Positions 3,846-41,128 of a DNA stretch of 41,128 nt are shown here, piece after piece; position 1 is the stretch's first letter, and the number at the start of each line of letters is the position of its first letter. Position numbers and translations under genes: made by a program. This stretch comes from a virus: positions 1 to 41,128 of IMG/VR virus record IMGVR_UViG_3300007539_000049; one strand, 5' to 3'. The notes beneath the pieces are model-generated. The model did not search any database and was not told the DNA's origin. It worked only from the letters and a program-made list of their open reading frames with translations.

Positions 3846-4562
3846 ATGTCGCAACTTCACAATACTGAGTACCACATGGCACCGGGTGCTAACGTGGGCG
3901 TTCGCCTATACGATCTACGCGACATGCCTTGTCGTCCAGAAGAGATCAAAGAAGGCGAGATAGACAAAGTGCTGGCGGGTATACCTACCATCGCCAAGCG
4001 CGAGTCTCACAACATACTGACAAACATCGGTAGAACTTGGTTGCGTAACTTGTCAGGCGCAGCCAGCTACGGGGCAATCGAAGCAGGCACGGGCTACATC
4101 GAGGGTACAGGCTACGCGCTTACTAGTGAGCGAGTGGCTTACCTGGGCCTTGGTGTAGGCGGCAGCTTCTCTTCAGCGCCTTACTTCGCTACGCAGGAAG
4201 AGCTAGTAACTGTCAGCGCGTTGGAAGACTACGTTCAGATCACAGACGCGCCTACTTATTTGAAAACCGTGCTACCACAAACTACAGTAAACGGTAGTTT
4301 CCCAGACAGCTACACCATACGGTTTTCGACTATACTAGCTTCTTCTGAAGTTTCCTTTGCGACCAACGTCAGCAAGAGCGCTCAGGCGGTAGGTACCAAC
4401 GTGCCGGTCAGTGAGGCGGGTTTGTACATTAGCGGTGCTACGCCGACTGAGAACCTAGACCATGTGGATAACAACACCCGTCTAGTTGCGTACAACATTT
4501 TTACGCCGATCCCTGTTACGCCCAATGTAGTTCTTAGGATCGACTGGGATTTCCTGTTTTGA
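3846..4562 (+). CDS. Tail/baseplate virion protein
   Basis: The start ATG 3846 lies two bases after the previous stop with a GAGGTAGG ribosome site overlapping that gene's end. The 238-residue product ends in a pattern (VSEAGLYISGA, then LVAYNIFTPIPVTPN and LRIDWDF) that I recognise from tail and baseplate proteins of large phages, where it terminates the chain. No transmembrane or enzymatic motif is visible. It sits directly before the giant tailspike, so attachment of the spike to the baseplate is a reasonable guess. The stop codon TGA overlaps the first GATC of a palindromic element shared with twelve other sites. Confidence 0.65.
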   Translation: MSQLHNTEYHMAPGANVGVRLYDLRDMPCRPEEIKEGEIDKVLAGIPTIAKRESHNILTNIGRTWLRNLSGAASYGAIEAGTGYIEGTGYALTSERVAYLGLGVGGSFSSAPYFATQEELVTVSALEDYVQITDAPTYLKTVLPQTTVNGSFPDSYTIRFSTILASSEVSFATNVSKSAQAVGTNVPVSEAGLYISGATPTENLDHVDNNTRLVAYNIFTPIPVTPNVVLRIDWDFLF

Positions 4563-4575
4563 TCACAGCGTGATC
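4561..4575. repeat. GATC-N7-GATC palindrome, copy 1
   Basis: The sequence is GATCACAGCGTGATC. It starts in the stop codon of the upstream tail gene and ends 13 bases before the tailspike start, so it is essentially intergenic. It is identical over all 15 bases to copy 5. Confidence 0.85.
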
Positions 4576-4588
4576 GTGCGAGGCTAGC

Positions 4589-7500: not shown

Positions 7501-10168
7501 CCGGGTGGACCACCGGGTGGATATTACGGTAGGTAACGACCTGTCTGCTAATCCCTACTACAACAACTTCACCAACTTTGCTTCTCTTGGAGAGGCGTTA
7601 GCTGCCATCGGGGTTTGGTCTGAGTCTGTTCAGATAGAGCGGGCGTACATCATCCATGTCATAGGTGATACCGTCGAGGTAGAAGACGCAACATTAGGAC
7701 TAACCCAGCCCTACGCCCTGCCTATAGACGGTCTCCGCATTATAGGTCACGCAGGGGGTAATTCGGGTCCTAGGTGTCAGTGGTCTAACCCTAGCACCTT
7801 AATTGACTTGAACTCTAAAGATGGCACCCACATAGAGAATCTAGATTTTGCTTGGGCGAGCACTACTGCCACGCACGGAATTAATGTTGCTTACGCAGTC
7901 TTCACCGCTACTGGCAGTGCGCAGTGGGACGCTACGATTAAGAACTGCAGAGCTACGGCTGTAGGCGGCGCTACCACGTCTCTAGAGGCGTTCTTCGCAG
8001 CGACTACCTCGAACCAGGGAGGTGCCAACAACCTCACCATCGAAGGTTGTTATGCGGAGGTCACAAATGCTGGCGTGTTGATTAGCGGGGCATCGACAAC
8101 CTACAACTCTGTACACATCGCAAACTGCGAATTTGTGCACAGCAGTTCAAGTGCAGGTGCTACTGACGATCACGACGCAATATCCGTAGACGAAGCCCTA
8201 AACCTGAAAGTCATAGGTAATAAAATTGCTACAGCAGGTGGTAACGATTTTTCAAACGGGATCGAGTTCTTTATAGGTAAGGAAGTCCTCATCAAAGATA
8301 ACACCGTGGCGTCCTGCAGTAACACAGGTATAGACCTATACCCACACTCCGCAGCTGCTTACGGTGATGCCTCTGGGTTCAAGATTGTTAATAACACGCT
8401 AATAGACTGCGGTATTACAGGTATCGTGGTAGACGTACCCAATTCCATTGTTTCGGGTAACGTAATCAGTGGAGGTTGCTCCAGTTACGGTATCAAGGTG
8501 GGTGCGGAGAACGTAGCTGTCACAGGAAATAGGCTAAACACTATTTCTGGGCAAGGTATAAGGATTACTGAGTTTGAGGAGTCCAACCTAGAGTATGGTC
8601 TGTCCTCAGGCGGTTATAGGTCCACCTATAACGTACGTGTTTCGGACAACACTCTGATTGATACAGGTACTGCCGACACCGCTGCAAGCTATCCTATACG
8701 AGTGACGGCTACTCAGCCTGGAGCTACGTGTGAGCGTTGCATTATTTCTGGCAACCAGATTGATACAGAGTTTACAAGTACCGCACGCACTACTTTGGAT
8801 ACGTCGATCAGCATTGACTCATCTAGCCCTAACTGCGTAGTAACTGGAAACATGATTTCTGGTAACTTCAAAGTGCAGACTTCCGCTGATCGCACTGTGA
8901 TCGATAACAACAAGTTCCTGGACTGTGACTTAGACACAATAGTTATCGACGCCGAAGACGCTTTGGTTTCAAACAATGTTTTTATCGGGGGCGCTTTTCC
9001 CGCGATAAAAATAGATAGCACGGGCAGTGCTTCCTTGGACAAGTTCCAAATCATCAATAACAGGTCTACGAATTTGGCGAGCATTGTGGACAATAACAGT
9101 TCTCACCAAAGTACAGGATGCGACGTCAGCGGTAATGTAGGCTTTGCTGTTATTACGCTATACACGGACGATTCTAGAGTAAGCGGAAACGTTGCCTCTA
9201 ACGGCTCAAGCACCTTGACCTTGTCAGGTGAGTACAACGTAGTTACGGGTAATGTTACCAACTCAGGTAGCCTATCTGTCACAGGTAATTACAACGTAAT
9301 TAACGGTAACAACCTAGGTGACGGGGGCATCGACGTAAACGGAGATGCTAACGGTATTTCTAACAACTACGTAGGAGACGACCAGATCACTTTGGCCGCT
9401 AACTCCACAGGCTGTCGTATTATAGGCAACAACATAGCACGCACTACTGCGTTAGGCTCTGACGCTATATCCGTAGGTAACTCCTGCACGGGTACCATCA
9501 TACTAGGTAATGTTGTGCAGGATGAAGGTGTGTCTAGTGGTACTAACTGCGACCACTCTGCCGTGCTATTCAACAGCTTACTTTCACTCGCGCAGCCCGA
9601 AATCACCTGGGATGGCGACTACTCCAGTGTAAGCGGCAACGTATTTAAGAGCTTAACCGGATCTGCTGGTATTGTCAGTACTGGGAGTAACGTTTCTACG
9701 TGCCTTAACTTAACGCGCACTGTCACCCTCACAGGAGACAATTTAGGCGTGCATTCTAATGTGCTGGCCTCTGACTTAACAGCAACGGGCGATAACCTAG
9801 TACTGGGCGGAAACCTAGTTACAGGATCTGTGGACACAACTGGTAGCAGGTCTGTCTTTATCGGTAACTTAATGCCCGATGGTAGTGCAACGTTCACCGT
9901 AAATGCTGAGAACCCCGCTGGAACGCAGGCACAGAAAGCCTCCATGGCCGCTCTTTCCGGTAATAACATAGCCTCAGATATGAACCTACTAGGTGGTCGT
10001 AATGTTGCTAGCGGCAACCTTCTGAAAAGTGCTGCAGGCAGTACAGAAGATGTTTACCTCAACAGCAGTACAGGTGACGCGGATTTGCACAATAATACTA
10101 TAGTAGGTAATAAAAGCGGTCCTGTAGTTCACCCAGGCACGGGCGATATTGAGGCTAACAACGGCTAA
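4589..10168 (+). CDS. Giant tailspike with right-handed parallel beta-helix
   Basis: ATG 4589 has a CGAGG ribosome site and opens a 1859-residue protein, far longer than typical tailspikes (about 600-1000). Residues 1 to about 850 are Gly/Ser/Thr-rich and probably form attachment and beta domains. A collagen-free connector near 850-1000 holds the tandem IHRVDHRVD. From about residue 1060 to 1820 there are more than fifteen rungs with the pattern [VI]-x-G/N-N (VSGNVISGG, VTGNRL, ISGNQI, VTGNMI, INGNNL, IIGNNI), the asparagine-ladder signature of pectate-lyase/NosD-like right-handed beta-helices. Such spikes bind and often depolymerise surface polysaccharide; no catalytic residues can be assigned by eye. 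It is the last gene of this late block, followed by a convergent hairpin. Confidence 0.85.
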   Translation: MKTLDRLIGSVVTGDTPLSDTTSNYKRTPTVSQDAGTKFVEQGENWTARTANRVAGALALNIDTLATLLDGPSISCETLFWNAGSGVGTGQFGWPSLYFEDTVDILDGSSYPLINLGLSGGSPSHEPPATWVYVGLLQSSLAEGKYLKFYRDATATAASSSSPLGDTNQLSAFSKQLLPAFIQRSSTSDTVTKYHGTQNYIGNHSMGMPDFVPPITEVVSDISPYNGSNQQTVISSWDVDGPVLSVTLNYLHVRPGSYLKVEGTSSGSNDGIWYVKEVIDSKAVLTRGPLVRVTVSNGASFTAGQMVAWQEPPNHTTAGSSLDALENRAYVMFISGNDLWLARLGAPIDTGSRVSTESVAAGNPLQVLKSGKFGSLDQETGFDDHWVMPIGTRLYPVNHSSPSTSSETVSAALPSSWPAGFDTSVAAVGTATPMNPPGFLLNPVIGLPLYDAASKPSIVPGNYYLQCRTLTTVKERLLNSGGEQVDRIAGAPSELLPGLEDREYQAEQLLLKHLHLGSQAPQDYEHVLNHVYSPTRKILGSSLYLVEADTNGDGSGTGLGIAFESGTLSPGDVVSFTHATADGGVTKATVVWGWGTFLLVRDAYRTGWTNPWQKHDYYGFKSIDVSSTIVVSATTYTATATWYPKIHVSDFGLNARYEELQPPGLNAEYWGRYSSDTGSRAVSAGIGTGTNEILQRAGEPQRIIMGQVTGHYGTQYVTDQDSGYPLLMTHYASGTNLPMWGIGWDTGNPSGSTARLTLDVWSGKMVWKDIAMSPNEAAVWDWSSGTHLQLHPDANRLVLAEDGGSTQKAAFDTNTDSLGFEDVNTGVAGTPIYLSDTLYNDMAPDIQSGGSDSSIAGAIYGALLGGADYASVSGGVLQGGTVTATAPTGLTVDVSSSVYVFRGRRYGQGVAATAATITDNSTAYLAYTPATQSYVFDSNLDLDNDSSIYLAKVTAASGNITEIVSCKQMIHRVDHRVDITVGNDLSANPYYNNFTNFASLGEALAAIGVWSESVQIERAYIIHVIGDTVEVEDATLGLTQPYALPIDGLRIIGHAGGNSGPRCQWSNPSTLIDLNSKDGTHIENLDFAWASTTATHGINVAYAVFTATGSAQWDATIKNCRATAVGGATTSLEAFFAATTSNQGGANNLTIEGCYAEVTNAGVLISGASTTYNSVHIANCEFVHSSSSAGATDDHDAISVDEALNLKVIGNKIATAGGNDFSNGIEFFIGKEVLIKDNTVASCSNTGIDLYPHSAAAYGDASGFKIVNNTLIDCGITGIVVDVPNSIVSGNVISGGCSSYGIKVGAENVAVTGNRLNTISGQGIRITEFEESNLEYGLSSGGYRSTYNVRVSDNTLIDTGTADTAASYPIRVTATQPGATCERCIISGNQIDTEFTSTARTTLDTSISIDSSSPNCVVTGNMISGNFKVQTSADRTVIDNNKFLDCDLDTIVIDAEDALVSNNVFIGGAFPAIKIDSTGSASLDKFQIINNRSTNLASIVDNNSSHQSTGCDVSGNVGFAVITLYTDDSRVSGNVASNGSSTLTLSGEYNVVTGNVTNSGSLSVTGNYNVINGNNLGDGGIDVNGDANGISNNYVGDDQITLAANSTGCRIIGNNIARTTALGSDAISVGNSCTGTIILGNVVQDEGVSSGTNCDHSAVLFNSLLSLAQPEITWDGDYSSVSGNVFKSLTGSAGIVSTGSNVSTCLNLTRTVTLTGDNLGVHSNVLASDLTATGDNLVLGGNLVTGSVDTTGSRSVFIGNLMPDGSATFTVNAENPAGTQAQKASMAALSGNNIASDMNLLGGRNVASGNLLKSAAGSTEDVYLNSSTGDADLHNNTIVGNKSGPVVHPGTGDIEANNG
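7498..7521 (+). repeat. 12-bp tandem duplication inside tailspike
   Basis: CCACCGGGTGGA occurs twice head to tail and encodes HRVDHRVD at the boundary between the N-terminal region and the beta-helix segment. Each unit is nearly self-complementary. It looks like a small in-frame slippage duplication at an interdomain hinge. Confidence 0.6.
8888..8902. repeat. GATC-N7-GATC palindrome, copy 2
   Basis: The sequence is GATCGCACTGTGATC. It lies within the beta-helix part of the tailspike, encoding DRTVID in this frame. It is identical to copy 6, which lies on the opposite coding strand in an unrelated gene. Confidence 0.8.
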
Positions 10169-10173
10169 GAACA

Positions 10174-11801: not shown

Positions 11802-12281
11802 CTACCTCCCTTGCAGTAGGTATATACGGATACGCATACCTACCTTTTCTCCTTTTTCCTTCTCCAGTACGGCCTTCAGGTTTCCCGAGTCATCGAAGCC
11901 CGCTACTTTAGCGGCTACGTCTTCGGGGAACTTCAGCCAGTTCCCAACGTCTCTTCTCACCCACCTGCCTGTCTTGCAAGGTTTTGAGTGATCACGGTGG
12001 GATCGCCACCCTTTGGTCTCTATCTCCTCTAGCGTGAACAAGAAATGTATCAGGTACGCTTTTGTTTTATCCAGCGGCTCTAGATGACCCCACTGCGCCT
12101 CTAAGTCTTTCAACAAAGCTTTCTTGAAGTTTTTAAGCTTGCTGCTGGGTCCCAGAGTGTAGCGGTTTCTAACCTTCACTATGATGTACGCTTGATTTAT
12201 GGAGGGAGGTATGTGCTCCGACCATGCCTCACGTACTAGTTGTGGAGGGTGCTCTTGTAGCCGCTGGATAAAGTCGTCCAT
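11802..12281 (-). CDS. RusA-like Holliday junction resolvase
   Basis: The 159-residue product has the layout of RusA resolvases: an early IPPSINQAY (about 24-32), and a C-terminal RRDVGNWLK (109-117) followed by GFDDSGN (128-134) and a closing beta strand RIRIYLL. In RusA these Asp and Lys residues bind metal and cut four-way junctions symmetrically. The usual second Asp of the DxDN motif reads Gly here (D111-V-G113-N), so activity may be altered. The start ATG overlaps the previous stop by one base (TAATG). Resolving branched replication intermediates before packaging is the expected role. A related nuclease of a different fold lies two genes upstream in the same operon. Confidence 0.7.
   Translation of the reverse strand: MDDFIQRLQEHPPQLVREAWSEHIPPSINQAYIIVKVRNRYTLGPSSKLKNFKKALLKDLEAQWGHLEPLDKTKAYLIHFLFTLEEIETKGWRSHRDHSKPCKTGRWVRRDVGNWLKFPEDVAAKVAGFDDSGNLKAVLEKEKGEKVGMRIRIYLLQGR
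11990..12004. repeat. GATC-N7-GATC palindrome, copy 3
   Basis: The sequence is GATCACGGTGGGATC, inside the RusA-like gene. Read in the gene's direction it encodes RSHRDH. This is a different frame from most coding copies, and copy 13 also encodes RSHRDH in an unrelated protein. Confidence 0.75.
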
Positions 12282-14696: not shown

Positions 14697-14936
14697 CTAG
14701 TCCTCCAGTGTGTTGTCCAACTGCTCTTTGAGTCTGTCCTTAGAAGCTCTCTTCTCTCCGGGTTCAATACCCATCAGCTTCTCAAAAAGACCCTTACGAA
14801 TGAGGTCTGCAGCTTCTGCTTCACTCTTAGCGTGCCCTGCTGCTATGAGCACGGCAACCTTTCTTCTCGGCGCTCCTAGTTTTTCCACGTTCCTTCCCTC
14901 CTGTTCGATCACCGTGTGATCACTTACACGCCCCAT
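14697..14936 (-). CDS. Small hypothetical protein between polymerase and recombinase
   Basis: The 79-residue, charged, helical product starts at ATG 14936, overlapping the polymerase 3' end by 17 bases, with a GGTAGG site upstream. The centre (KVAVLIAAGHAKSEAEAADLIRKGL) resembles a short helical bundle; no family is recognised. Its fifth to eleventh codons (SDHTVIE) are encoded by palindromic element copy 4, so any protein bound there would sit on this gene's start region. Confidence 0.65.
   Translation of the reverse strand: MGRVSDHTVIEQEGRNVEKLGAPRRKVAVLIAAGHAKSEAEAADLIRKGLFEKLMGIEPGEKRASKDRLKEQLDNTLED
14907..14921. repeat. GATC-N7-GATC palindrome, copy 4
   Basis: The sequence is GATCACCGTGTGATC and it matches the consensus closely. 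It covers the polymerase stop codon and the beginning of the following small gene on the minus strand. Confidence 0.85.
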
Positions 14937-21438: not shown

Positions 21439-21453
21439 GATCACGCCACGATC
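21439..21453. repeat. GATC-N7-GATC palindrome, copy 7
   Basis: The sequence is GATCACGCCACGATC. It is upstream of the operon promoter and two bases beyond the operator arm, just before the stop of the upstream minus-strand gene. Its right half departs most from the consensus. Confidence 0.75.
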
Positions 21454-26047: not shown

Positions 26048-26076
26048 CTTATGCCAATAACTTGCGAGGTTTTGCC
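26048..26076 (-). promoter_or_regulatory. Candidate minus-strand promoter facing away from the RNA polymerase gene
   Basis: On the minus strand TGGCATAAG gives an extended -10 (TGn plus CATAAG at 26048-26053), with GGCAAA 17 bases upstream (26071-26076). The block is shared with the element at 21758. It overlaps the ribosome site of the RNA polymerase gene on the other strand, so the two transcription units would interfere. The alternative is that the shared block is a plus-strand late promoter. Confidence 0.4.
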
Positions 26077-29000: not shown

Positions 29001-32000
29001 CGACGGACTTACCTACAAGTCCGATCAGACCCAGAACGAAGTATGGTCTGCCGTACAGGCAGGTATGCCGCTACCTGCGCCTCAGCCCAGTTTCGCGTAC
29101 GAGAAGTTCCTAGGGTACCTAGCAGGTACCGGTGTGAACGTAGAGAAGAAAGGCAACATGCTTGTCCTTTCGCCACTCACAGATGAGCAGATACTGGAGA
29201 AGTCCAACGGTGAACTCACGGACGCTACAAAGGTGCTTCGCGGTAAAGATCTGAAGCCCGAAAAGGGTGGCTTGTTCGATATGGAGATTACCGGTGGACC
29301 TGGGGGTAAGGGCTGGTCACATATAAAGCTCGCGGAGCCTATCCCGAACCCCGTCTTTGAGAAGGCGGTAGTATCCTTGTTAGGACTGAAGCAGAAAGAC
29401 TATGACGCAGTTCTGCAAGGTAAGACACGTCTCGACGAAACCGGCAAAGTGGTAGAGTCCGGAGGTAAGACAGGCGCTGCTGCCATCGTAGCGGCACTGG
29501 CTAATCTGAACGAAGACCAAGCTCTTGCCAAGGCTGAGTCACAGTTAGAAACCGCCCGCAGAGGTGATCTGGATAAGGTAAACAAACGCATTAAGTACCT
29601 TAAGGCACTTAAGAGCGCAGGTCTCGAAGCGCAGGAAGCGTATACTCTAAGCAACCTGCCAGTGCTGCCTCCGATCATGCGACCCATCTCCGCTTTGGAA
29701 GGTGGTGACTTGTCGGTGGATGGTCTTAACCTACACTACAGGGAAGTCAGCTTATTGAACGACGCCTTACTCCAAGCGAAAGGCGTTGTGCCCGACGAGA
29801 TGCTCGTCGGTAGTGGTTACCACCTGTACAGCGCAGTGCGGGGCCTGATGGGATCAGGCACCCTTAAACCGGGTACCAATCTAAGCGACGGTAAAACGGA
29901 GCAACCTCCGGGTATCATGGATATCCTGTCAGGTAGGCAAGGACCCAAGACAGGTTACTTTCTGAAGAACGTCGTAGACCGTCGCCAGGACTTGGTTATG
30001 CGCTCAGTCATTGTGCCTGACCTGGACCTGTCTTTGAACGAAGTCGGCCTACCGCGAGTCGGAGCCATGAAAATGTTCCAGCCCTTTGTTATGCGGGAAC
30101 TGCAGGACATGAACATGACTCCCCTGCAAGCACGTAAGGAAATTGAAGATAACACTGAGCTTGCCAACCGGGCGCTAGACGTGGCTGTCACTAAGCGTCC
30201 TGTGCTGTTTAAACGAGACCCTGTGCTTTACAAGTACGGCATACAGGCGTTTGACGTAAAGCTACACGACCAAAAGTCTATACACATTCACCCCCTAGTT
30301 GTTGGTGGGTTTAACGCCGACTTCGATGGCGACACCATGGCAGTCTTTGTTCCTGTAAGCGAAGAGGCTGTACAAGAGGCGTATCAGAAGATGATGCCTC
30401 AAAAGAATATCTTTGACCCCGGCTCTGGCAGGGTTAAGTACATGCCTTCTCTAGAAGGGCAACTTGGCTTATTCCTACTTTCTCAGTGGGGTAAGGACAG
30501 TTCTAAGAAGTTCTCTAGCTTAGAAGCTGCTGCTAAAGCCTACCGCGAAGGTGAGGTTACAGCCAACGAAGTAGTCAAGGCCGGTAGCTATAGAACTACT
30601 CCAGGTAGAGCAGCCATTTACACCGCTTTGCCTGATGGCGCTCGAGAAACCACTATACTTACAGACCCTAAGTTTACCGTAAACTCTAAGAACTTGGGTA
30701 AAATGATGTCAGTGGTGGGAAGAGACAAGCCTAAGTCTTTCATAGCCACCGCTGACAGAATCAAGGAACTAGGCTGGGGGCACTCCCACTCTATCGGATT
30801 CTCTTTCCAAGACAGCGACTTCAGAGTGCTGTACAAGCTACGGTCTAAGCACCTCAAGATAGCGGACAAAAAAGTTGCGGCGCTGCCTTCTTCGATGAAC
30901 TCAAAGGCTCGTAGTGAAGCGATAATCAAGATATACAGCAAGGCTACCTCGGACATGAGCGCCGAGGCTAAGAAGGAACTGTCTAAGCAGGGCAGCGCTC
31001 TCTATACCATGCACGCTGCAGGTACTAAGCCTGGCTGGTCTCAGCTTCAGCAGTTGGTTCTTGCGCCTATGCTTCTCGAGAACGCTAAAGGAGAGGTTAT
31101 ACCCGTGCCTGTGCGTAAGTCGTACACCGAGGGACTGACTACTGCAGGGTACTGGATTACTTCTTCTGGTGCCCGTAAAGGTCTGATTGAGAAAGTGCAG
31201 TCTGTATCTCAGCCGGGTGCGCTGTCTAAGCAGATCGTCAACACGACTATGGGCACTACCATCACAAACAACGATTGCGGTACCGACAAGGGCATCAGTC
31301 TTGATATTGATGACATGGACCTCATAGACCGCTTTACTGCAAAACCATTCAAAGTGGGTAGCAAAACCATACCACGCAACACACTTCTTACTGCTCGTCT
31401 GAAGTCTGAATTGAAGGACGTAGGGGTTAATAAAGTAGTTGTGCGGTCTAGTATGAAATGCGCCGAAGGCGGAGGCATATGCAGTCACTGCTACGGTGTT
31501 ACTGCGGGTGGTAAGTCTTTAGAGAAAGGCACCAACATCGGTGTTATAGCTGGGCAGGCCATCGGTGAGCGCGGTATGCAGCTTTCGATGAAGCAGTTCC
31601 ACACAGGCGGTGTGGCTTCAGGCGGCAGCAACGTAGTCAGTGGTTTTAACCGCGTTAGCCAGATTGTGAAGATGCCTTTGAATCTTCCAGGGCAGGCTAC
31701 TCTAGCACCTGTGTCAGGTACCGTTACGGGTGTACGCAAGAGTCCTTCAGGCGGCTACGACGTGCAGGTCGGTACCAACACTGCTTACGTTCCAGTTAAC
31801 CTCAGCCTAAATGTCAAGAAGGGTGACAAAATAAGAAAAGGCGATGCCATTAGTTCTGGTCCTATCAATCCGCGCCAGCTTCTTGAGCTAACTGACATAG
31901 ACAGGGTGCAGAGATACTTAGCAGACGAGCTACACAGCGCTTATGCCTCTGAAGGTATTAAGAAGCGAAACATCGAGGTTGTGACACGAAGTCTTACCAA

Positions 32001-32319
32001 CCTGGCTGTGGTCGATGACCCTGGGGACGTGCCTGGTTTTATACGTGGGGACATGATTCAGGCAAGCCACGCTAACCATCTTAACACTAAGACTGCGGGG
32101 GCTAAGCTAAAGTTTACACCAGTACTGAAGGGTGTTGAGACACTACCTCTAGACCAAACAGAGGACTTTCTGGCAAGGTTGCACTACCGGCGTCTCAAAG
32201 ACACTATACAGAGAGGTGCTGCTGAAGGCTGGCAAAGCGACATACATGGTGTGCACCCTGTTCCTGGCATTGTGTACTCCAAAGAGTTCGGCAAATCTCC
32301 AAAAGGCGGTCCCTACTGA
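26077..32319 (+). CDS. Single-chain DNA-directed RNA polymerase, fused beta and beta' subunits
   Basis: ATG 26077 has GCGAGG eight bases upstream; a TTG five codons earlier is less likely. The 2080-residue protein contains, in order, beta motifs IPQITKRYSYIVGGNEY (about 93; matches the FIINGTERV segment), LDPVATPEGKKTG, ALGTNLHIAYLPF with FEDGIVISE, GDKLSGRYGNKGVI (772), NPSGVPGRINPSQIHET (808) and FGGLGLFAMLAHGA, then without linker (about 1030) beta' motifs RPISALEGGDL, the catalytic loop NADFDGD (1413-1419), a zinc site C1734, C1795, C1802, C1805, and the trigger loop GERGMQLSMKQFHTGG (about 1830). Zinc domain 1 of beta' is missing: GLFDMEITGG passes straight to the HIKLAEP strand. E. coli beta plus beta' total about 2750 residues, so it is compact. 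No alpha, omega or sigma gene is in the window. Confidence 0.95.
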   Translation: MRTVLSLNAHEADLESGVMDAINSYFPYEGKKQTLEVKKLYAGDKRKDDDFSAQKSFRTKGKTWGYSVYGDFVLKDKSGKVVGSANKVKLATIPQITKRYSYIVGGNEYQADKQWRLSSGVYTRRKDSGELETQFNLAKGSGFRMLYDPIKKSYNLQYGTSNIPLYAAMNAMGVSDSQMKEAWGSAIFEANKRRHKDKDYVRLAQKLDRYNKDINTPTDAQEVIRKVYGKTELRPDTTKITLGQSFDKITGPALLRSSEKLLNVHRGKEEVDNRDSLLFKDFWSIEDHLPERISNSRARIKRRLANNVDRQTDPRRIVPPDTFDIPIKSYFTSTSLSQQPSQVNPLDMINGHLRTTILGTGGISTEQAVTFDAKLIDPSQLGFLDPVATPEGKKTGITTHLGLGVGKIGNRPALMAWSVKSGKYEMISSDKMATSTVAFPDSYEWSSGKPKARESTVTVTKAGDPDVVKPGKVEYILAKPTNMFSMTTNLIPFLPSTQAGRAEMATRHLEQAIALSQPEPPLVQSHTGSEGRLSTFEKLVGNFISHTSPVDGKVTKVAKDSITVKDSSGKSFKVPLYDHYPLNDKKAFIHSKPLVSVGDTVKAKQVLADNTFTKDGVLALGTNLHIAYLPFRGLTFEDGIVISETAAEKLRSPHLYKPHQYLEKNMSLGLSKFRSHYPGVVSDENAKKLDDQGVIKVGQIVKPGDVVATILAKKDPRLESIELKGIHKSLDRAYADKSLTWDKSTLGIVTDVVKHGNEVEVHIKTDEKADVGDKLSGRYGNKGVITAVLPDEEMPHDKDGNPIEIIVNPSGVPGRINPSQIHETRLAKVAAATGDTYAIRNFEPSDDKKIVKVEGHYRTVKTKEGVKRIYVEPYEYERDYGGMVERELRAHGMTGEEELVDPESGTSLGSVMVGHQYILKQRHQVDKKLSARAAGSGYAYDANLVPKSGGGSGGQTFGGLGLFAMLAHGAVHNIRDGLTYKSDQTQNEVWSAVQAGMPLPAPQPSFAYEKFLGYLAGTGVNVEKKGNMLVLSPLTDEQILEKSNGELTDATKVLRGKDLKPEKGGLFDMEITGGPGGKGWSHIKLAEPIPNPVFEKAVVSLLGLKQKDYDAVLQGKTRLDETGKVVESGGKTGAAAIVAALANLNEDQALAKAESQLETARRGDLDKVNKRIKYLKALKSAGLEAQEAYTLSNLPVLPPIMRPISALEGGDLSVDGLNLHYREVSLLNDALLQAKGVVPDEMLVGSGYHLYSAVRGLMGSGTLKPGTNLSDGKTEQPPGIMDILSGRQGPKTGYFLKNVVDRRQDLVMRSVIVPDLDLSLNEVGLPRVGAMKMFQPFVMRELQDMNMTPLQARKEIEDNTELANRALDVAVTKRPVLFKRDPVLYKYGIQAFDVKLHDQKSIHIHPLVVGGFNADFDGDTMAVFVPVSEEAVQEAYQKMMPQKNIFDPGSGRVKYMPSLEGQLGLFLLSQWGKDSSKKFSSLEAAAKAYREGEVTANEVVKAGSYRTTPGRAAIYTALPDGARETTILTDPKFTVNSKNLGKMMSVVGRDKPKSFIATADRIKELGWGHSHSIGFSFQDSDFRVLYKLRSKHLKIADKKVAALPSSMNSKARSEAIIKIYSKATSDMSAEAKKELSKQGSALYTMHAAGTKPGWSQLQQLVLAPMLLENAKGEVIPVPVRKSYTEGLTTAGYWITSSGARKGLIEKVQSVSQPGALSKQIVNTTMGTTITNNDCGTDKGISLDIDDMDLIDRFTAKPFKVGSKTIPRNTLLTARLKSELKDVGVNKVVVRSSMKCAEGGGICSHCYGVTAGGKSLEKGTNIGVIAGQAIGERGMQLSMKQFHTGGVASGGSNVVSGFNRVSQIVKMPLNLPGQATLAPVSGTVTGVRKSPSGGYDVQVGTNTAYVPVNLSLNVKKGDKIRKGDAISSGPINPRQLLELTDIDRVQRYLADELHSAYASEGIKKRNIEVVTRSLTNLAVVDDPGDVPGFIRGDMIQASHANHLNTKTAGAKLKFTPVLKGVETLPLDQTEDFLARLHYRRLKDTIQRGAAEGWQSDIHGVHPVPGIVYSKEFGKSPKGGPY
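28147..28161. repeat. GATC-N7-GATC palindrome, copy 9
   Basis: The sequence is GATCAGGGTGTGATC, inside the beta part of the RNA polymerase gene, encoding DDQGVIK. Confidence 0.8.
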
Positions 32320-33797
32320 TGAGTTCTATCATAACTCAGTTTTCTCCGAGCGACGGTACTGATCCTGCTGTGATCGAACAGTGTGTGATACTTACAGTGG
32401 ATACCGCCACTAAGACTTGCGAAGTCTCTGCGATGGTGTCCCAGCGCTCGATACCTAGGCGAGTTCCATACGCAACTCCTATGCTGCACGGCGCTTTTGG
32501 TAGCGGGGCAGAGTTTGCGCCAGAACCAGATACCATCTGCTACGTCTGCACACCTGCCGATGGTACGGGGTCGTTCATCTTTGCTTACCTACTAGGGCCT
32601 ACAGGCGTAAATGACGACATACCTATAAACCCTGACACAGACCTGTCTTACGCGGGTAGCAGGGCTAAGCAGCAGCCTGGGGATATCTCGTTTACTACTA
32701 GGGACAACAACTTCATTCACTTGCGACGAGGCGGTCTTCTTAGCATAGGTGCTTCGCCAAGAGCGCAGACTGTGTACCTACCTATAGAGAACCTAATACG
32801 CTGCTTCTATGACAGGCTGCAGCACATGACCCCCCTAGGTGAGTTGTTGTGGGACAGGGTGGAGTTTACTTCTGAGGAATCCACTGACGAGACGAGCGAC
32901 ATTCCAACTCTTCTGAAGTTTGGAGTGCGAGAAAAAATCAATCAGCAACTACTTACTCTAGAGGTGCGTTTAGGTCAGCTGAGCGCAGACGTGCTAGATA
33001 CCGCAGTAGACTCAAACCTTCTGAGGGAAGGCAAGACGACTTCTGTAAGCGTTGTCGGTGAAGATTACGAGCAAGAAGTAGTCGAAACGGGTACAGGGGC
33101 GGGGGATAGTGAGCACCTCTTTGGCGCACAGATGCGAGAGCAGGCCAGTGGTCTTGGCGCGGGTAGGTACAACGCCGAAGATGACGCAACACCCTTGGGG
33201 ATTACTTCTTTTGTACTGAGAGACGCTGACAACAACACTGTAACTTCGTCTCTGCAGTGCGCCAAAGATGGTACTATCTTCCTACGCACTGTTAATCATC
33301 TGCACGTAGAGTCTCGCACTTCTTACATCTTCGCAGACGACAGAATAAAGCTGCACAGTCGCAAAATTGCTGATGATGAGACAGAGACAAATAGCTTCAT
33401 AGATATTGCGTCTATTGCAGATTACATTAAGATAAAAGCGGGAGAAGCCCTCTTAGAACTGCTTACTTCCGGTGAGGTAGTTCTGGAAGGTGCTGACGTG
33501 ACCCTGAAAGCTTCTGGTCAATTCAAAATCGAATGCGACGGGGACGTAGAGATCAAAGGGCGTAAAGTCGTGTTTGACACCGACCATGTGGAAATCGGTA
33601 AGGGTGCAAAGGGCACCTTGCTAGCAGGCGCTGGTTCAGACTTCGACCCAGACACTTCGACCCCTGCGCAGCCTGGTTGGTTAGAAACTTTAGCGGCGCA
33701 CACCCACTCGGTACCTAACGGACCCCCGGACGTGTCACCAGCTATCAGCGGTAAGCGCACAGACAAAACTGCAACAACTCTTAAGATAAAACTGTAG
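32319..33797 (+). CDS. Baseplate central spike / hub-type protein
   Basis: ATG 32319 shares a base with the RNA polymerase stop (TGATG). The 492-residue product has an N-terminal OB-like region, then PGDISFTTRDNNFIHLRRGG and LLSIGASPRAQTVYLP as in gp5/gpV-like baseplate proteins, a variable middle, and from about residue 380 a run of short alternating strands (EVVLEGADVTLKASGQFK, CDGDVEIKGRKVVFD) typical of triple-stranded beta-helix spikes. It closes with HTHSVP, which may bind a metal near the tip. It would puncture the host envelope during infection. Confidence 0.75.
   Translation: MSSIITQFSPSDGTDPAVIEQCVILTVDTATKTCEVSAMVSQRSIPRRVPYATPMLHGAFGSGAEFAPEPDTICYVCTPADGTGSFIFAYLLGPTGVNDDIPINPDTDLSYAGSRAKQQPGDISFTTRDNNFIHLRRGGLLSIGASPRAQTVYLPIENLIRCFYDRLQHMTPLGELLWDRVEFTSEESTDETSDIPTLLKFGVREKINQQLLTLEVRLGQLSADVLDTAVDSNLLREGKTTSVSVVGEDYEQEVVETGTGAGDSEHLFGAQMREQASGLGAGRYNAEDDATPLGITSFVLRDADNNTVTSSLQCAKDGTIFLRTVNHLHVESRTSYIFADDRIKLHSRKIADDETETNSFIDIASIADYIKIKAGEALLELLTSGEVVLEGADVTLKASGQFKIECDGDVEIKGRKVVFDTDHVEIGKGAKGTLLAGAGSDFDPDTSTPAQPGWLETLAAHTHSVPNGPPDVSPAISGKRTDKTATTLKIKL
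32361..32375. repeat. GATC-N7-GATC palindrome, copy 10
   Basis: The sequence is GATCCTGCTGTGATC, 43 bases into the spike gene, encoding DPAVIE. The left half is the CTG variant also seen in copy 12. Confidence 0.75.
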
Positions 33798-33807: not shown

Positions 33808-35868
33808 ATGGCACTGTTCCGTAAACTAGAAAGCGGTTTTGAGAAGTACGCTGCCGCTGCGCGCATCCGGTTAGGAGACAACCCGCAACAGTGGGAAAAT
33901 GAGATACTGGCTCGGTTATACGAAGCACACTCTTTCCTAGGAAAGTTCTCAGTAAATCTAGAGATCCAACAAGAGGATATCTCTAGAGGGTATATGAAGG
34001 GTATTTTTGTAGTGACCAACGCTGCACGTCCTTCTAACGCTGCGATGAACGGTACGCAACCTACGCAGTCGTATCCGGAGCCTAATGCCGATGATGAGCA
34101 GCCGGGCTTGAACACGGCACCTCCTAGTGACGCACAGTCTAACTTTGCACGTATACCCATTCTTGTTGAGGACAGTAAGCTCTGCCCCCTTGATGTGTTC
34201 ATCAAACCGGATGATAGTTTCGACTATCTGACTGAGGACAACCTCACTAACTCGCTGTTCAAGATAAACAACTTCCAAACTGCGTCGCCCATGGCGGCGC
34301 GTGACTCTGTTTACAGTGGAGGCGATATGCCCGAGGTTCCTTCCTCTAGGCACTACTCGTCTATGGGTAACAGAGGCACAGAGAAGACGGCATCCTTGCT
34401 ATCTGAAGTTTGCTCTTACATTCCCTTGGAGAAGAGAGCTTCGCTAGTCGAAAGTTGCCTGTCCGATCCCTACACCTATGCGCAGGCTAGAAGCAACCTA
34501 GACTTCGCAGGAGCCTTGAACTACATTAGCTCTACTCCTTACATCTCAGCGAACGAGATGGCTAACGTAGAGAAGCTAGCTTCTGCAGAAGAAGCCAACG
34601 TTGCTCTGATTCGATACACCGATAAAGGGTTCGACCTCACTATGGGTAACAGGCAGACCTTCGCACCTGTCACCTATTCAGATGTAAGCAAAGAAAAGCT
34701 GGCGAGCTTGGATCCCTACCTGCTGAATAGGGCTCTAAGTGAGGGCTACGCTTTGGTAACCCCTCCGGGCAAACTTGGTAGTACTTCTACTGCACCAGAC
34801 CTCAGAGTGGCGGAGAAGACTGCGGGCCACTTCGCAGTTGCCGCAAAAGAAGGTGGGATTCATCAGGCTTTTGTAGTTAACCCTCTGCGCTCTGTTCAGA
34901 ACGGTAAGTCGTTGGATCTAACGCTGGCCATTTGGGAGGACGGGTACAACGTCCAAGAAAAAGTGGCAGGCGTTGCTATTCCTAGTAACTTCGACATTAC
35001 CGGGTTACCTGATCACGACGTGATCGGTAAAGGTGTCTTCATCTTCGAAGACGGTAGCGTCTCTGAGCCTGTAGAGGTAGAGAACACCGTCTACCGAAAC
35101 GATTCTGAGAAGTACAAGTGTCGGACTTTGTGGGGTAAGCCCATCTCGTTAGAGAAGAGCGCGTCTGTCAAGGTACCGCTACCCTACGGCGATGACCAGT
35201 ACCTTTTCCCGGCCACGGCCAAGTTTGTACCGCTGCCCAGTTTTGGGCATTACAACAAGCTAGCCTCTGACGCAGACTCGGCGGAAAAACTAGCCTTCTT
35301 CAACGAGGACGTAGACTCTGTGTCCCTCTACAAAACTAGCCCTGGTCGCTATGTCTTGGAGGGTACGCCCCTGTCGGGTTTGGGTCACAGGCAAACCGCG
35401 AACTTAGACCAGTCCGAGACTGCTTTCATGTTGGGCCTTCTCGGTGCTGATTCGAGTCAGGCGTACGAGAAGCTCGCGGCGGCTGACAGAGGGGAGGAGG
35501 TTAAGTTCTTACCAGCCTCTATCCCCACAGTACCTTCTTTGCCAGTAAGTCCTTATCTTGGGTTCGCTGACGAGATTGCCTCTATGTCTACGTGGATGCC
35601 TAAAATCGCGTCCATCATGCAGAGCGCACAGACCATCGACACCGTTCTGTCTTTGAACTTCGTCACCCCCGATACGATGGCTTCATACGTGGAGAATATC
35701 GAACTGTTGGAGCAGGCTAGAAGTAAGATGGCAGAGATGCTCATGGGTGCCAGACTCGGTGTCCCTGACTTACCAGAAGGTGCTCTGCGATCTGCACTTC
35801 GCGCAATCAACTCCATCGTCAGTGCTATCAACGAGTTGAAGATTAGAGTGGATCAGTCTAATGCCTGA
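33808..35868 (+). CDS. Large virion-type hypothetical protein with eleven K-x-A motifs
   Basis: ATG 33808 follows TAGGAG. The 686-residue product is not recognised. The N-terminal 75 residues (FRKLESGFEKYAAAARIRLGD, then FLGKFSVNLEIQQEDISRG) look like a compact domain, followed by a Pro/Asn-rich linker (about 72-112). It holds eleven copies of [EN]-K-x-A-[S/G/A/F] with lysines at 13, 193, 209, 256, 297, 337, 385, 450, 484, 494 and 555, about one every 50 residues. The C-terminal 130 residues are helical. It lies between the spike and further unknown late genes; a structural or internal protein that is proteolytically processed is a plausible inference. Confidence 0.7.
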   Translation: MALFRKLESGFEKYAAAARIRLGDNPQQWENEILARLYEAHSFLGKFSVNLEIQQEDISRGYMKGIFVVTNAARPSNAAMNGTQPTQSYPEPNADDEQPGLNTAPPSDAQSNFARIPILVEDSKLCPLDVFIKPDDSFDYLTEDNLTNSLFKINNFQTASPMAARDSVYSGGDMPEVPSSRHYSSMGNRGTEKTASLLSEVCSYIPLEKRASLVESCLSDPYTYAQARSNLDFAGALNYISSTPYISANEMANVEKLASAEEANVALIRYTDKGFDLTMGNRQTFAPVTYSDVSKEKLASLDPYLLNRALSEGYALVTPPGKLGSTSTAPDLRVAEKTAGHFAVAAKEGGIHQAFVVNPLRSVQNGKSLDLTLAIWEDGYNVQEKVAGVAIPSNFDITGLPDHDVIGKGVFIFEDGSVSEPVEVENTVYRNDSEKYKCRTLWGKPISLEKSASVKVPLPYGDDQYLFPATAKFVPLPSFGHYNKLASDADSAEKLAFFNEDVDSVSLYKTSPGRYVLEGTPLSGLGHRQTANLDQSETAFMLGLLGADSSQAYEKLAAADRGEEVKFLPASIPTVPSLPVSPYLGFADEIASMSTWMPKIASIMQSAQTIDTVLSLNFVTPDTMASYVENIELLEQARSKMAEMLMGARLGVPDLPEGALRSALRAINSIVSAINELKIRVDQSNA
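35011..35025. repeat. GATC-N7-GATC palindrome, copy 11
   Basis: The sequence is GATCACGACGTGATC, perfectly symmetric around its central base over all 15 positions. It is inside the virion gene at 33808 and encodes DHDVI. Confidence 0.85.
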
Positions 35869-37589: not shown

Positions 37590-39434
37590 ATGCGCGACAC
37601 AGCAACCAGCACACTGCACTCTCTGTTGTCTGATCCTGGTGTGATCACGCAGCCTTTGAGTCCCGTAGCGGACTTTATGTTGTCCAAAGAAGCGGCAGAG
37701 TCTCCAGAGCAGAAATACCCCGTACCTACTAGTCTGCACACTTGGTTTAAGCCATATGACCACCAAGGCGCTGCCGTACAGAAGATGCTGGAGAACGACG
37801 GCAGAATAATCCTTGCTCACAAAATGGGCTTGGGTAAAACAGCCACTGCCGTGTACGGCTTTGAGCTACTCAAAGAGCAGGGCAAGGCTAAAAAGGCACT
37901 AGTAGTAGTGCCCGCAGGTCTGAGAGAGAACTTTGCGAAAGAAGGTGTCGGCAAGTTCGTAAAGGACCCCTCTTGGCAGATCGTAGCGTCTTCTTCTGAG
38001 GGTAAGCGGGAGAACTACGTAAGACCGGCTAACTTGGATCCATCCAAGGGCAAAGACTACACCGTAGTGTCCTACTCCATGTTCAGGAGGGACCCTGAAG
38101 GTTTGATGCGTGCCACAGGGGCAGATACCCTGATACTCGATGAGTTTCACAAAGCACGTAATGAAGGTTCGGGGGTATTCGCTGCAGCCATAAAAGCTAG
38201 GCAGATGTCCAAGAACTTCATAGGTCTTACGGCCAGCCTAGTGAACAATGATCCTGCCGAGGTTGCCTCTCTGCTGACCATCTCAGAGGGTAAGCGTATG
38301 ATTACGCCCGCTGAGTTCAGGAGGAAGCACGTAAAGACCGTAGGCGTCGAGAGAGGGTTCAGGGGCAGTACTAAGAAGGTAAAGGCGTTACAAGACAAAC
38401 CACGGCTTGTAAAGAACCTAGAGCCTAGAGTTGATTACGCTGAATCCTCCATGCTCAAGGGTGGTAAAACGCTACCTAAGAAAGACACTAGGTACGTAGA
38501 CGTCCCTATGTCCAAAGAGCAGTACAAGCTGTACCAGCTTGCTATGAAGGATCTAGGTCCTCTTCAAACATACATCACGCGTAGAGACAAAAACGTCACA
38601 GTCAAAGACGCCGAGACTTTGTTCGCAAGAACCTCGCAGGCACGTCAGATAGCTAACTCAGTGCACGCTGGCAAACGCATGAGCATTGAGAACTCTGCGA
38701 GGGCTACACCTAAAGTACGTAAACTGCTAGATGACGCTCAAGCTCACCTTGCGGAGAAGCCAGACAACAAGATAGTGCTCTACTCCAACCTTATAAATGG
38801 CGGCGTAGACGTACTGTCAGCAGGTCTGAAAGCTCGTGGAGTGCCCCACGAGATCTTCGTTGGTAAGGGCACCGAGGTAGGCGGTAACAAAATCACCTCA
38901 GAGGTTAGAGACACAGGAGTGGCTAACTTCAAGAAAGGTACTAAGCGTGTTCTCGTGCTGTCAGGCGCGGGTGCCGAGGGCCTGTCTTTAAACAACGCTA
39001 CTGCTTTTTATGCCCTGGACGGTCACTTTAACCCAGAACGTATACAGCAGGCAGAAGCCCGCGTACGTCGCCTAGGCGGTCAGTCCCACAGGGCTCCTGA
39101 AGAGCGTGTTGTAGACGTTAGGCGTTATAGGTCAGTGGCTCCCGCATCTGGTGCGGCCAGGTTACTCCCTAGATTCATGCAAAGTAAAAAAAGCAGGCAG
39201 CAAACTCAAACAACAGACCAGTGGATGTACTCCACCGCAGAGCGTAAGTTCAAACAAAACAAAGAGCTTTACGACACGCTAAAAGAGCCCAACAAGTACG
39301 TCAGGCGCTGGAAAGATCCTAAGACAAATCAGTGGCGTTATGAGTATCCAAAAGAGCAAAGGACAGGTGTCGTATCTAGACTCACTTCCTTCTTTAAGAA
39401 GCCACGAGAAGCCTCCCCGGTTCAGGGAGGCTGA
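37590..39434 (+). CDS. SNF2-type superfamily 2 helicase/ATPase
   Basis: ATG 37590 has TTGAGG upstream; a longer frame overlapping the previous gene lacks a ribosome site. The 614-residue product has LHTWFKPYDHQGAAV (Q-motif region), motif I AHKMGLGKT (about 76-84), motif Ia ALVVVPAGL, motif II LDEFH (D184), motif III GLTAS, and C-terminal motifs V (LSGAGAEGLSLNNAT) and VI (QQAEARVRRLGGQ, about 487). These are the SF2/SNF2 translocase motifs; such enzymes in phages are proposed to remodel or clear protein from DNA. It lies within the virion operon rather than with replication genes. The N-terminus carries SKEAAESPEQK, similar to the lysine motifs of neighbouring virion proteins. Confidence 0.85.
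   Translation: MRDTATSTLHSLLSDPGVITQPLSPVADFMLSKEAAESPEQKYPVPTSLHTWFKPYDHQGAAVQKMLENDGRIILAHKMGLGKTATAVYGFELLKEQGKAKKALVVVPAGLRENFAKEGVGKFVKDPSWQIVASSSEGKRENYVRPANLDPSKGKDYTVVSYSMFRRDPEGLMRATGADTLILDEFHKARNEGSGVFAAAIKARQMSKNFIGLTASLVNNDPAEVASLLTISEGKRMITPAEFRRKHVKTVGVERGFRGSTKKVKALQDKPRLVKNLEPRVDYAESSMLKGGKTLPKKDTRYVDVPMSKEQYKLYQLAMKDLGPLQTYITRRDKNVTVKDAETLFARTSQARQIANSVHAGKRMSIENSARATPKVRKLLDDAQAHLAEKPDNKIVLYSNLINGGVDVLSAGLKARGVPHEIFVGKGTEVGGNKITSEVRDTGVANFKKGTKRVLVLSGAGAEGLSLNNATAFYALDGHFNPERIQQAEARVRRLGGQSHRAPEERVVDVRRYRSVAPASGAARLLPRFMQSKKSRQQTQTTDQWMYSTAERKFKQNKELYDTLKEPNKYVRRWKDPKTNQWRYEYPKEQRTGVVSRLTSFFKKPREASPVQGG
37632..37646. repeat. GATC-N7-GATC palindrome, copy 12
   Basis: The sequence is GATCCTGGTGTGATC, 43 bases into the helicase gene, encoding DPGVIT. 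It has the same distance from its start codon as copy 10 has in the spike gene. Confidence 0.75.
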
Positions 39435-39576
39435 TCCTGCAGGACCTTCTTGCTACGACTGCCAGAACTTCAGAGCCATTCGCATCTTCGCAAAGGAGGG
39501 TAAGTGTCTGGAGTACGCTGGCCACCTAGTGTCGGGCCTTACGGTGTGTGATGCTTTTCATCCGCAGGAGTACTGA
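39340..39576 (+). CDS. Small cysteine protein overlapping the helicase end
   Basis: The product is up to 78 residues, with the distinctive second half SCYDCQNFRAI, KCLEYAGHLV and TVCDAFHPQEY. This CxxC...C...CDxFxP layout is seen in short phage proteins next to structural genes and may bind zinc or an iron-sulfur cluster. The start is uncertain: ATG 39340 has no ribosome site, GTG 39367 has AAAGGA very close, and the frame is +1 relative to the helicase with a GC-rich hairpin at their overlap. The conserved part is wholly downstream of the helicase stop. Confidence 0.65.
   Translation: MSIQKSKGQVSYLDSLPSLRSHEKPPRFREADPAGPSCYDCQNFRAIRIFAKEGKCLEYAGHLVSGLTVCDAFHPQEY
39411..39431 (+). other. GC-rich hairpin at the helicase stop codon
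   Basis: GCCTCCC and GGGAGGC pair perfectly around a seven-base loop and end immediately before the helicase TGA (39432-39434). The 3' arm would serve as a ribosome site sequence but no start codon follows in frame. It may hold the overlap region in a structure that governs reading of the downstream cysteine protein. Confidence 0.6.
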
Positions 39577-39838
39577 GTTCTGCTGGTTTTTTTACTCGAT
39601 TCGATCCCTTGCTGGCTCTGAAGACTTTTATAGTCTTGCCGCGCTTGGAGTGTTTATGGCCTGGAAACATTGATTTGGCTATCTCGGCTAGGGGCAGGGC
39701 TAAGCCCAACCTAGCTACCTTGTAGCTGGCGCACTCTTCGTCTATAACGAACTCAACCTCTAATCCGGCTAGAGTTAGTTGATTTAGGAGTTCTTCGGCA
39801 TGCGCCTCAAAGTTAAGCCCGCCAGAAACAAAACCCAT
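39539..39838 (-). CDS. Hypothetical minus-strand protein beside the terminase gene
   Basis: The 99-residue product starts at ATG 39838 with GGTGGAG upstream. The first 60 residues look like an ordinary alpha/beta domain (FEAHAEELLNQLTLAGLEVEF, YKVARLGLALPLAEIAKSMF), and the end is basic and polar. No family is recognised. Its 5' end overlaps the proposed terminase start by 39 bases and its 3' end overlaps the cysteine-protein gene. A good extended -10 promoter lies upstream (39899-39925). Without it the stretch 39594-39799 would be empty. It may be spurious. Confidence 0.5.
   Translation of the reverse strand: MGFVSGGLNFEAHAEELLNQLTLAGLEVEFVIDEECASYKVARLGLALPLAEIAKSMFPGHKHSKRGKTIKVFRASKGSNRVKKPAELSTPADEKHHTP
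39564..39593 (+). terminator. Intrinsic terminator at the end of the second late block
   Basis: GCAGGA (39564-39569) pairs with TTCTGC (39578-39583) around an eight-base loop, followed by TGG and seven T (39587-39593). The stem starts in the last codons of the cysteine protein. Its orientation fits the end of the transcript that carries portal, RNA polymerase and helicase, and implies that the terminase has its own promoter. Confidence 0.7.
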
Positions 39839-41128
39839 AAGTCCTACTCCACCTATCGATCACACCGTGATCATCGAAGCAACGATACTGAGCTAGAGAC
39901 TATACCAGCACTCCTACCTTCGCAATTTGTATCTTCTACTGTACGCATGCCAACCAGAGTATACGCGCCTGATGGTAGCTCTAGAACAGAGCTAAAGCCT
40001 TTCAGTTTTAAAGGAAGGGAGTATCTAAAGAAGCCCTACAACACTGACGCATCACGTATACTATTGATGTGCGGTCGTCAGGTTGAGAAGAGTACTCTGC
40101 TAGGTAACACCTGCCTAGCTCACGCAGCACTTCGTAGGTTCTTCAGAGCTTTGTACGTCAGCCCTACTCAGCAGCAGACAGAGACCTTTTCTAGAGATAG
40201 GTTAGAGGCACCCATAGACTGTAGTCCTGAGCTTACACAATTCATTACCGGCAAGGGTGCTAAGACTAAGAACAACGTACTGTACAAGAAATTCTTAACC
40301 GGCTCCGACATAACACTAAGGTACGCTTTCCTGTCTGCTGCACGTATTCGTGGTGTGTCTGCAGATATGCTTATGATCGACGAGCTACAGGACATACTCA
40401 CAGACATCATACCTGTTATCGAGGAGGCACTGTCTCACTCGGAGTACAAGATATTTAGGTATTCGGGCACACCTAAGTCCTTAGATAACACCATTGCCTA
40501 CTATTGGGAGAGATTCTCTACCCAGAACGAGTGGTTGATTCCATGCGATACATGCGGCTCAAAGCACTTCGGTTCCAGGCATTGGAACAGGGCGGGTATG
40601 AAGAACATAGGTAGCGAGGGTCTTGTTTGTTCTAAGTGCCTAGCCCTTATAAACCCACAGCATGAAGATGCGCAGTGGGTCTCATTCAACCCTAAGCCAG
40701 ATGTTCCTCAGCCCTTTGAAGGATATCGTATTACTCAGCTAATAACACCCTGGGTGTCTTGGGACGATATTCTAAACAAGCTGAAAATCTATAAGCCTCA
40801 GAAGTTCTACAATGAGGTGTTAGGCTACGGCTTCGATATGGGCGAAAGACCACTTACTTCCGGCGACATAAAAAAGTGCTGTAACGAAGCCATAACTCTG
40901 ACGAACCAAAAGCACGTAAGTAAAACCACTATGCACTTTGCAGGCATAGACTGGGGCACTGGCGAGAACGCGTACACTGTTATAGTTGTAGGTGGCTACT
41001 ACGGCGGTAAGTTTAGAATAGTCTATGCCCGTAGATTTGAGGGCGAGGAAACAGACCCCGAAGTGACCATGCGTATGGTCTGTCAGATAATACGTAGATT
41101 TCGATGCGTGCTCGTAGGTACTGACTAC
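39800..41128 (+). CDS. Terminase large subunit (TerL), 3' end outside window
   Basis: 443 codons are visible. I place the start at ATG 39800, which has AGGAG nine bases upstream; ATG 39947 is in frame but lacks a ribosome site and would remove the plausible segment IPALLPSQFVSSTVRMP. Visible motifs are Walker A MCGRQVEKST (about 90-99, with Glu in place of the usual Gly before Lys), Walker B LMIDELQD, the coupling segment YSGTPKS, an inserted zinc ribbon (PCDTCGSK and VCSKC) and the beginning of the RNase-H-like nuclease, FAGIDWGTG. TerL pumps DNA into the prohead through the portal and cuts the concatemer. The remaining nuclease residues lie beyond the window. Confidence 0.9.
   Translation, partial: MRLKVKPARNKTHKSYSTYRSHRDHRSNDTELETIPALLPSQFVSSTVRMPTRVYAPDGSSRTELKPFSFKGREYLKKPYNTDASRILLMCGRQVEKSTLLGNTCLAHAALRRFFRALYVSPTQQQTETFSRDRLEAPIDCSPELTQFITGKGAKTKNNVLYKKFLTGSDITLRYAFLSAARIRGVSADMLMIDELQDILTDIIPVIEEALSHSEYKIFRYSGTPKSLDNTIAYYWERFSTQNEWLIPCDTCGSKHFGSRHWNRAGMKNIGSEGLVCSKCLALINPQHEDAQWVSFNPKPDVPQPFEGYRITQLITPWVSWDDILNKLKIYKPQKFYNEVLGYGFDMGERPLTSGDIKKCCNEAITLTNQKHVSKTTMHFAGIDWGTGENAYTVIVVGGYYGGKFRIVYARRFEGEETDPEVTMRMVCQIIRRFRCVLVGTDY
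39858..39872. repeat. GATC-N7-GATC palindrome, copy 13
   Basis: The sequence is GATCACACCGTGATC, in the first 25 codons of the terminase gene where it encodes RSHRDH, and 20 bases upstream of the minus-strand gene start. It lies between that start and the minus-strand -10 element. Confidence 0.85.
39899..39925 (-). promoter_or_regulatory. Candidate extended -10 promoter for the minus-strand gene
   Basis: On the minus strand TGGTATAGT gives a TGn extended -10 with TATAGT (39899-39904), five of six bases of consensus, and TTGCGA lies 15 bases upstream (39920-39925). The start would be near 39892, leaving a leader of about 54 bases that contains palindrome copy 13. Confidence 0.5.

Follow-up and report, generated by a model that had tools for sequence, protein, structure and literature searches.

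Thirteen evenly spaced copies of a GATC-bounded palindrome in an uncultured bacterial virus and their recurrence in a phage of another lineage: candidate sites for a dimeric DNA-binding protein

What reads a short palindrome that recurs thirteen times along a phage genome, mostly within genes and every few kilobases? The dispersed operator networks known so far belong to a handful of temperate phages; the reader is phage-encoded there, and the sites lie between genes. The window considered here (the whole stretch of DNA analysed, all 41,128 bases of one IMG/VR record) comes from an uncultured bacterial virus and covers its genome in part. Besides a fused β-β′ RNA polymerase (Table 1), it encodes a portal, a GpA-type terminase, PolA, a DnaG-like primase, a DnaB-like helicase, a RecA-like protein, a Holliday resolvase, a UDG-like protein, and proteins of baseplate type. 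The closest named relatives by polymerase are Vibrio phages D181, D148, and D69 and Salmonella phage Arash, at ~31% identity; the closest relative overall is the syntenic IMG/VR record L005 (G001), whose PolA is ~41% identical. In L005, the β-β′ RNA polymerase is likewise a single chain (2095 aa, positions 9579-15866). The homologue is annotated as two genes in Arash; the stretch of D181 homologous to the fused polymerase includes a homing-endonuclease gene.

The first-pass annotation had listed 13 places at which two GATC tetranucleotides are separated by seven bases, and all 13 are present where it had put them. Dinucleotide shuffles of the 41,128-nt window contain GATC-N7-GATC 0.31 times on average and twice at most; the excess over chance is therefore confirmed, and the figure of about 0.6 originally given for chance was, if anything, generous. 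The proposed form of the element, GATCACR-N-YGTGATC, was upheld in its GATC ends and its dyad symmetry but less so in its interior, which is matched exactly at only 4 of the 13 sites; six sites have one mismatch and three have two, all of them within the inner seven bases. A scan of the window with GATCACRNYGTGATC, allowing up to two mismatches, found no place beyond the 13. When the window sites were pooled with those of a second genome, G003 (see below), a symmetrised 17-bp consensus, YGATCACRSYGTGATCR (motif A), was obtained, in which a Y precedes and an R follows the 15-bp element and the centre is G or C. The outer Y and R carry 0.8 bits each, and AC and R ~0.9 bits each. Nothing is conserved outside the 17 bp in the pooled sites, and since conservation ends there, an inserted repeat is ruled out. 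By the definition used, GATC is invariant in this consensus; however, a search without the GATC requirement (up to two mismatches) added no site in the window and two in G003, which shows that the definition accounts for little of the invariance. GATC is unbroken in all window sites within two mismatches of the consensus. Several spellings of the motif were looked for in the literature, and none was present in the papers covered.

Since what never varies among the sites is GATC, it could be supposed that the paired tetranucleotides sense Dam methylation, as in SeqA-type or MutH-type systems. Such a methylation-dependent mark is very improbable. Among GATC pairs, only the 11-bp spacing is clearly over-represented, and spacings of 10 bp, 12 bp, or two helical turns are not, whereas SeqA-type recognition tolerates several helically phased spacings. 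The inner AC-R-S-Y-GT is conserved as well, and no dam-like gene was recognised.

Table 1. Motif A sites of the window and the gene of its RNA polymerase (positions in the window)
Feature	Sequence	Position	Strand	Context
Site 1	GATCACAGCGTGATC	4561..4575		Overlaps stop codon of 3819-4562; 13 bp ahead of the start of 4589-10168
Site 2	GATCGCACTGTGATC	8888..8902		Deep within the 5.6-kb gene 4589-10168, in frame DRTVI
Site 3	GATCACGGTGGGATC	11990..12004		Within 11802-12281; sole in-gene site in another frame
Site 4	GATCACCGTGTGATC	14907..14921		PolA stop / first codons of 14697-14936
Site 5	GATCACAGCGTGATC	18025..18039		3′ end of primase gene
Site 6	GATCGCACTGTGATC	20695..20709		3′ end of UDG-like gene, ~12 bp ahead of next gene
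Site 7	GATCACGCCACGATC	21439..21453		First codons of UDG-like gene; one of the three sites with two mismatches
Site 8	GATCAGGCTGTGATC	25919..25933		Intergenic, upstream of RNA polymerase gene; centre of a longer inverted repeat, CGAGTAAGTGATCA-GGCTG-TGATCACTTACTCG (25910-25942)
Site 9	GATCAGGGTGTGATC	28147..28161		Deep within RNA polymerase gene, in frame DQGVI
Site 10	GATCCTGCTGTGATC	32361..32375		First codons of 32319-33797
Site 11	GATCACGACGTGATC	35011..35025		Within 33808-35868
Site 12	GATCCTGGTGTGATC	37632..37646		5′ end of SNF2-type helicase gene
Site 13	GATCACACCGTGATC	39858..39872		Between 39539-39838 and a likely terminase start near 39947
Fused β-β′ RNA polymerase		26062..32319	+	2085 aa, single chain; ADFDGD motif; groups the phage with Arash, Vibrio D181, and L005

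According to the predicted genes, 10 of the 13 window sites are located in genes and three are intergenic. Nine of the ten sites lying wholly in genes share one frame, GAT-xxx-xxx-GTG-ATC (GCG replaces GTG once), and are read as Asp-x-x-Val/Ala-Ile; all nine keep GAT and ATC unchanged, and the proteins in which these sites lie are unrelated. One of the two remaining frames is closed because it contains TGA. The shuffled-codon control proposed in the first-pass annotation destroyed the sites: after synonymous-codon shuffling within genes, 3.7 of 13 sites survive in the window and 5.6 of 11 in G003, mostly the intergenic ones. Motif A sites are under DNA-level selection. It is hardly credible that they serve as RNA hairpins (terminators or processing sites with both arms transcribed). 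The palindrome can fold (stem of 6 bp, loop of 3 nt), and the site at 25919 is placed within a longer inverted repeat, but changes in the inner arms are uncompensated (GATCAG..GTGATC, GATCCT..GTGATC), several sites are found mid-gene, and the five inner bases of a different palindrome dispersed in L005 (described below) are mostly unpaired.

This common reading frame went unnoticed in the first-pass annotation, as did the even spacing and the crowding at gene starts. The mean spacing in the window is 2941 bp (~2.94 kb) with a CV of 0.36, which is more even than uniform placement would give (P ~4e-4). At the same time, 7 of the 13 sites are found within 50 bp of a predicted gene start, a zone that makes up 7% of the genome (P 1e-5; circular-shift P 7e-4). 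None of 20,000 simulated placements preferentially or wholly at gene starts was as even as the window, so gene boundaries do not explain the even spacing. In addition, three genes each contain one site far from both of their ends (8888, 28147, and 35011). A need for spacing may thus be primary, and junctions may be favoured because coding constraint is weaker there.

The same element was found in one more genome. An exact scan of IMG/VR with GATCACAGCGTGATC gave 39 stretches, three of which belong to G003 (IMGVR_UViG_3300025674_000176; 34,348 bp), a record with 12 copies of GATC-N7-GATC in all; the other, single matches are at chance level. The two ends of G003 (1-1885 and 32464-34348) overlap over 1885 bp at 94%, which indicates a near-complete genome of ~32.46 kb with 11 distinct motif A sites. 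The 94% identity of the overlap looks like that of a contig assembled from two strain variants, whose genome would be circularly permuted or terminally redundant. The 11 sites have a mean spacing of 2951 bp (~2.95 kb) and a CV of 0.33 (evenness P 1.5e-4), likewise beyond what gene positions explain in simulations, and 8 of them are within 100 bp of a predicted gene start (P 4e-4). Three IMG/VR scans, including motif variants, revealed no third phage among the matches listed. The two genomes are apparently unrelated: tblastx between the window and G003 gave no match, and in all-against-all blastp of their ORFs only PolA matched convincingly, and remotely, which led to the rejection of a reader gene common to both. 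A helicase in each matches the same broad family, phrog_62. Tetranucleotide similarity gave no sign of a common host of the window and G003, G003 ranking 56th of 152. That both genomes carry one palindrome at equal mean intervals suggests sites for one common DNA-binding protein.

The conservation in related phages by which the first-pass annotation would have judged the motif was not found. L005, although syntenic with the window, has no copy of motif A. In Arash, D181, D69, and G002, genomes of ~180-205 kb, GATC-N7-GATC occurs just 3-9 times and lacks the inner motif. Phylogenetic inheritance of motif A was therefore rejected. L005 contains a palindrome of its own, ATTA-N5-TAAT, in 11 copies against 0.2 expected, whose centre mildly favours Y-S-R; these copies are not significantly even (P 0.14) and not near gene starts. 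They resemble a second palindrome of G003, YAKTACTSAGTAMTR (motif B), which is present there in 10 copies, some abutting motif A; four motif A sites of G003 have it within 40 bp (circular-shift P 0.002). Sites like a third palindrome, TGATTTAAATCA, occur at several places in G003. No comparable array of these motifs was found in Arash, D181, G002, or G018. In Arash (OQ632216), 15 copies of TATA-N17-TATA were counted against 0.36 expected; they may be promoters that serve the polymerase and sigma factor of this phage. When 118 viral loci were surveyed for other dispersed palindromes, GTGT-N7-ACAC, TAGG-N7-CCTA, and TATG-N7-CATA came up and were rejected as clustered operators or tRNA arms. Records such as L298 and L252, each with a pair of sites resembling motif A, were judged to be chance. 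Two perfect motif A sites 231 bp apart (1546-1560 and 1777-1791) were observed in L110 (IMGVR_UViG_3300045051_000356), in an element of 63% GC where they adjoin an integrase-like gene and a tRNA-like sequence; these are possibly integrase or excisionase sites, or chance. Five copies of a ctGTAGTGCTACag-type palindrome in L273 (7319-10060) are probably an ordinary operator set.

Candidates for the reader were sought among the encoded proteins. Among 31 G003 proteins scanned, the only Pfam helix-turn-helix protein is small-terminase-like and encoded beside the terminase gene, and no ParB, MatP, nucleoid-type protein, or repressor family was found; many G003 genes are without a known family. The 21 proteins scanned from the window, itself a fragment, included no ParB family. 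The 79-aa protein of 14697-14936, whose first codons hold a motif A site, was considered and rejected: it is ribbon-helix-helix-like by eye only, its single-sequence structural model is weak (pLDDT 70), and a PDB fold search gave nothing meaningful, the best hit (E 7.9) being a KorB chain. These results bear on the proposal that the sites organise the genome without transcription control, a nucleoid-type, partition, or packaging protein bridging or condensing the DNA into ~3 kb loops. The even spacing with the same mean in two genomes, the presence of sites within long genes, and the indifference of the L005 sites to gene starts would all fit, but the preference for gene starts in two genomes would not, though weaker coding constraint could explain it, and the G003 scan recognised no ParB, MatP, or nucleoid-type protein; this proposal is considered rather unlikely. 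The matS site read by MatP is a palindrome that has an odd centre and an ACRNYGT core in common with motif A; it differs in its flanks and is an enterobacterial chromosomal Ter marker, and no MatP family was seen here.

A comparison with phage repressor systems is more instructive. As a positive control, the same scanner recovered 15 conserved inverted repeats of phiC31 in 41.5 kb (mean 2.84 kb). These sites of the c repressor are similar to motif A in that many near-perfect inverted repeats are dispersed over the genome. However, they are intergenic in 14 of 15 cases, compared with 3 of 13 here, their spacing is not significantly even (P 0.19), they have an invariant 14-bp core and are even-centred, and their repressor is phage-encoded. 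In tblastn, the c repressor found no match in the window (a fragment) or in L005, and gave E 0.079 in G003. L5 has ~24 stoperators for gp71 through its genome (PMC5712189), and cluster A stoperators are asymmetric, bound by a monomer, in one orientation relative to transcription, and predominantly intergenic (PMC4557955; PMC5712189). The L5 sites are alike in their spread but differ from motif A, which is symmetric; the first-pass annotation was thus right to set the element apart from L5 stoperators as well as from chance. Could the sites still be immunity operators of the stoperator or CIR type, where a phage repressor on all sites would keep transcription off or blocked genome-wide in the lysogen? 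The density equals that of phiC31, 18-30 dispersed repressor sites are present in L5 and phiC31 (PMC4557955), and motif A favours gene junctions. Nevertheless, this reading is an unlikely one, considering the even placement with 10 of 13 sites in genes, the lack of a recognised integrase among the annotated genes of the window or G003, the lack of a significant c repressor homologue in the window, G003, and L005, and the occurrence of the motif in an unrelated phage.

Two further systems share some properties with motif A. The repeated element of SPbeta, read by MrpR, is 15 bp long and occurs many times in a single phage genome (PMC10516654), but it lies in the promoter regions of ~ten genes, whereas motif A is mostly in genes; its reader is phage-encoded, and as far as known it is not common to unrelated phages. 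KorB of plasmid RK2 loads at palindromic operators and reaches promoters at distances of up to 1.5 kb (PMC11790492). Its operators are 13-bp odd-centred palindromes with a G/C centre, like that of motif A, and KorB acts together with a second operator (KorA), which parallels the adjoining copies of motifs A and B in G003. The differences are that the sequence is another one, that the plasmid encodes the reader, and that no ParB/KorB family was found in the 31 G003 and 21 window proteins. Doubling this range of 1.5 kb would give the 3-kb interval of the sites, an agreement of numbers that is suggestive but does not count as evidence. Since each named member is at odds with motif A in intergenic location, asymmetry, or reader, the array is not filed under any of them; by analogy, the system appears to work like a dispersed operator network while standing outside each named member.

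If the motif belonged to the host, as Chi, KOPS, or uptake signals do, a strong excess over the host chromosome could be expected. A search of 84,980 species genomes with YGATCACAGCGTGATCR gave at least 118 stretches, about the chance number as estimated, and in 49 of the matching whole genomes the fuller consensus has 1-6 copies each. No motif-rich bacterial genome was present among the matches listed, so that a host-chromosome mark is not supported. The same counts weigh on a Chi-like mark for self or protection against a host nuclease, in which phages of one host would adopt a host-wide motif. This would agree with a motif that is common to unrelated phages, evenly spread, and tolerant of coding sequence, but it is improbable given the lack of a genome-wide excess among the listed bacteria; moreover, known Chi-type signals are asymmetric.

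It is quite possible, though short of probable, that the 13 sites are binding sites of one twofold-symmetric (homodimeric) DNA-binding protein acting every few kilobases; a dimeric reader of a symmetric site, as first suggested, fits the sequence. The motif is real but not bound to a lineage, being absent from L005 and present in 11 copies in G003, which points to a reader supplied from outside the phage's core genes. In the mechanism proposed for such a homodimeric reader, the phage would need one site per stretch of up to ~4.6 kb, placed at junctions for their weak coding constraint, or within the gene body when a gene is too long. The bound protein would act outward over a few kilobases, either as a road-block or as a silencing or organising node, and this outward action would set up domains of ~3 kb, like KorB at its dispersed operators or the phiC31 repressor on its repeats. 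The reader may act in trans from the host or a co-resident element, or it may be a phage protein of a type missed by profiles. A broader interpretation, possible but on the doubtful side, is that unrelated phages of one host group keep sites spaced by ~3 kb for a protein whose gene they lack. A host or co-resident factor occupying each 3-kb unit of incoming DNA would then be exploited or required, and the palindromes A and B and that of the L005 type would mark different factors. What sets the array apart from the known networks is the even spacing, the selection within coding sequence at a cost in amino-acid choice, and the presence of the array in two phages of different lineages. Such a pattern would suggest a DNA-binding factor at the level of the host or the community, with a spacing rule of ~3 kb that can be tested directly, and motif A is a simple signature with which further members can be sought in sequence data.
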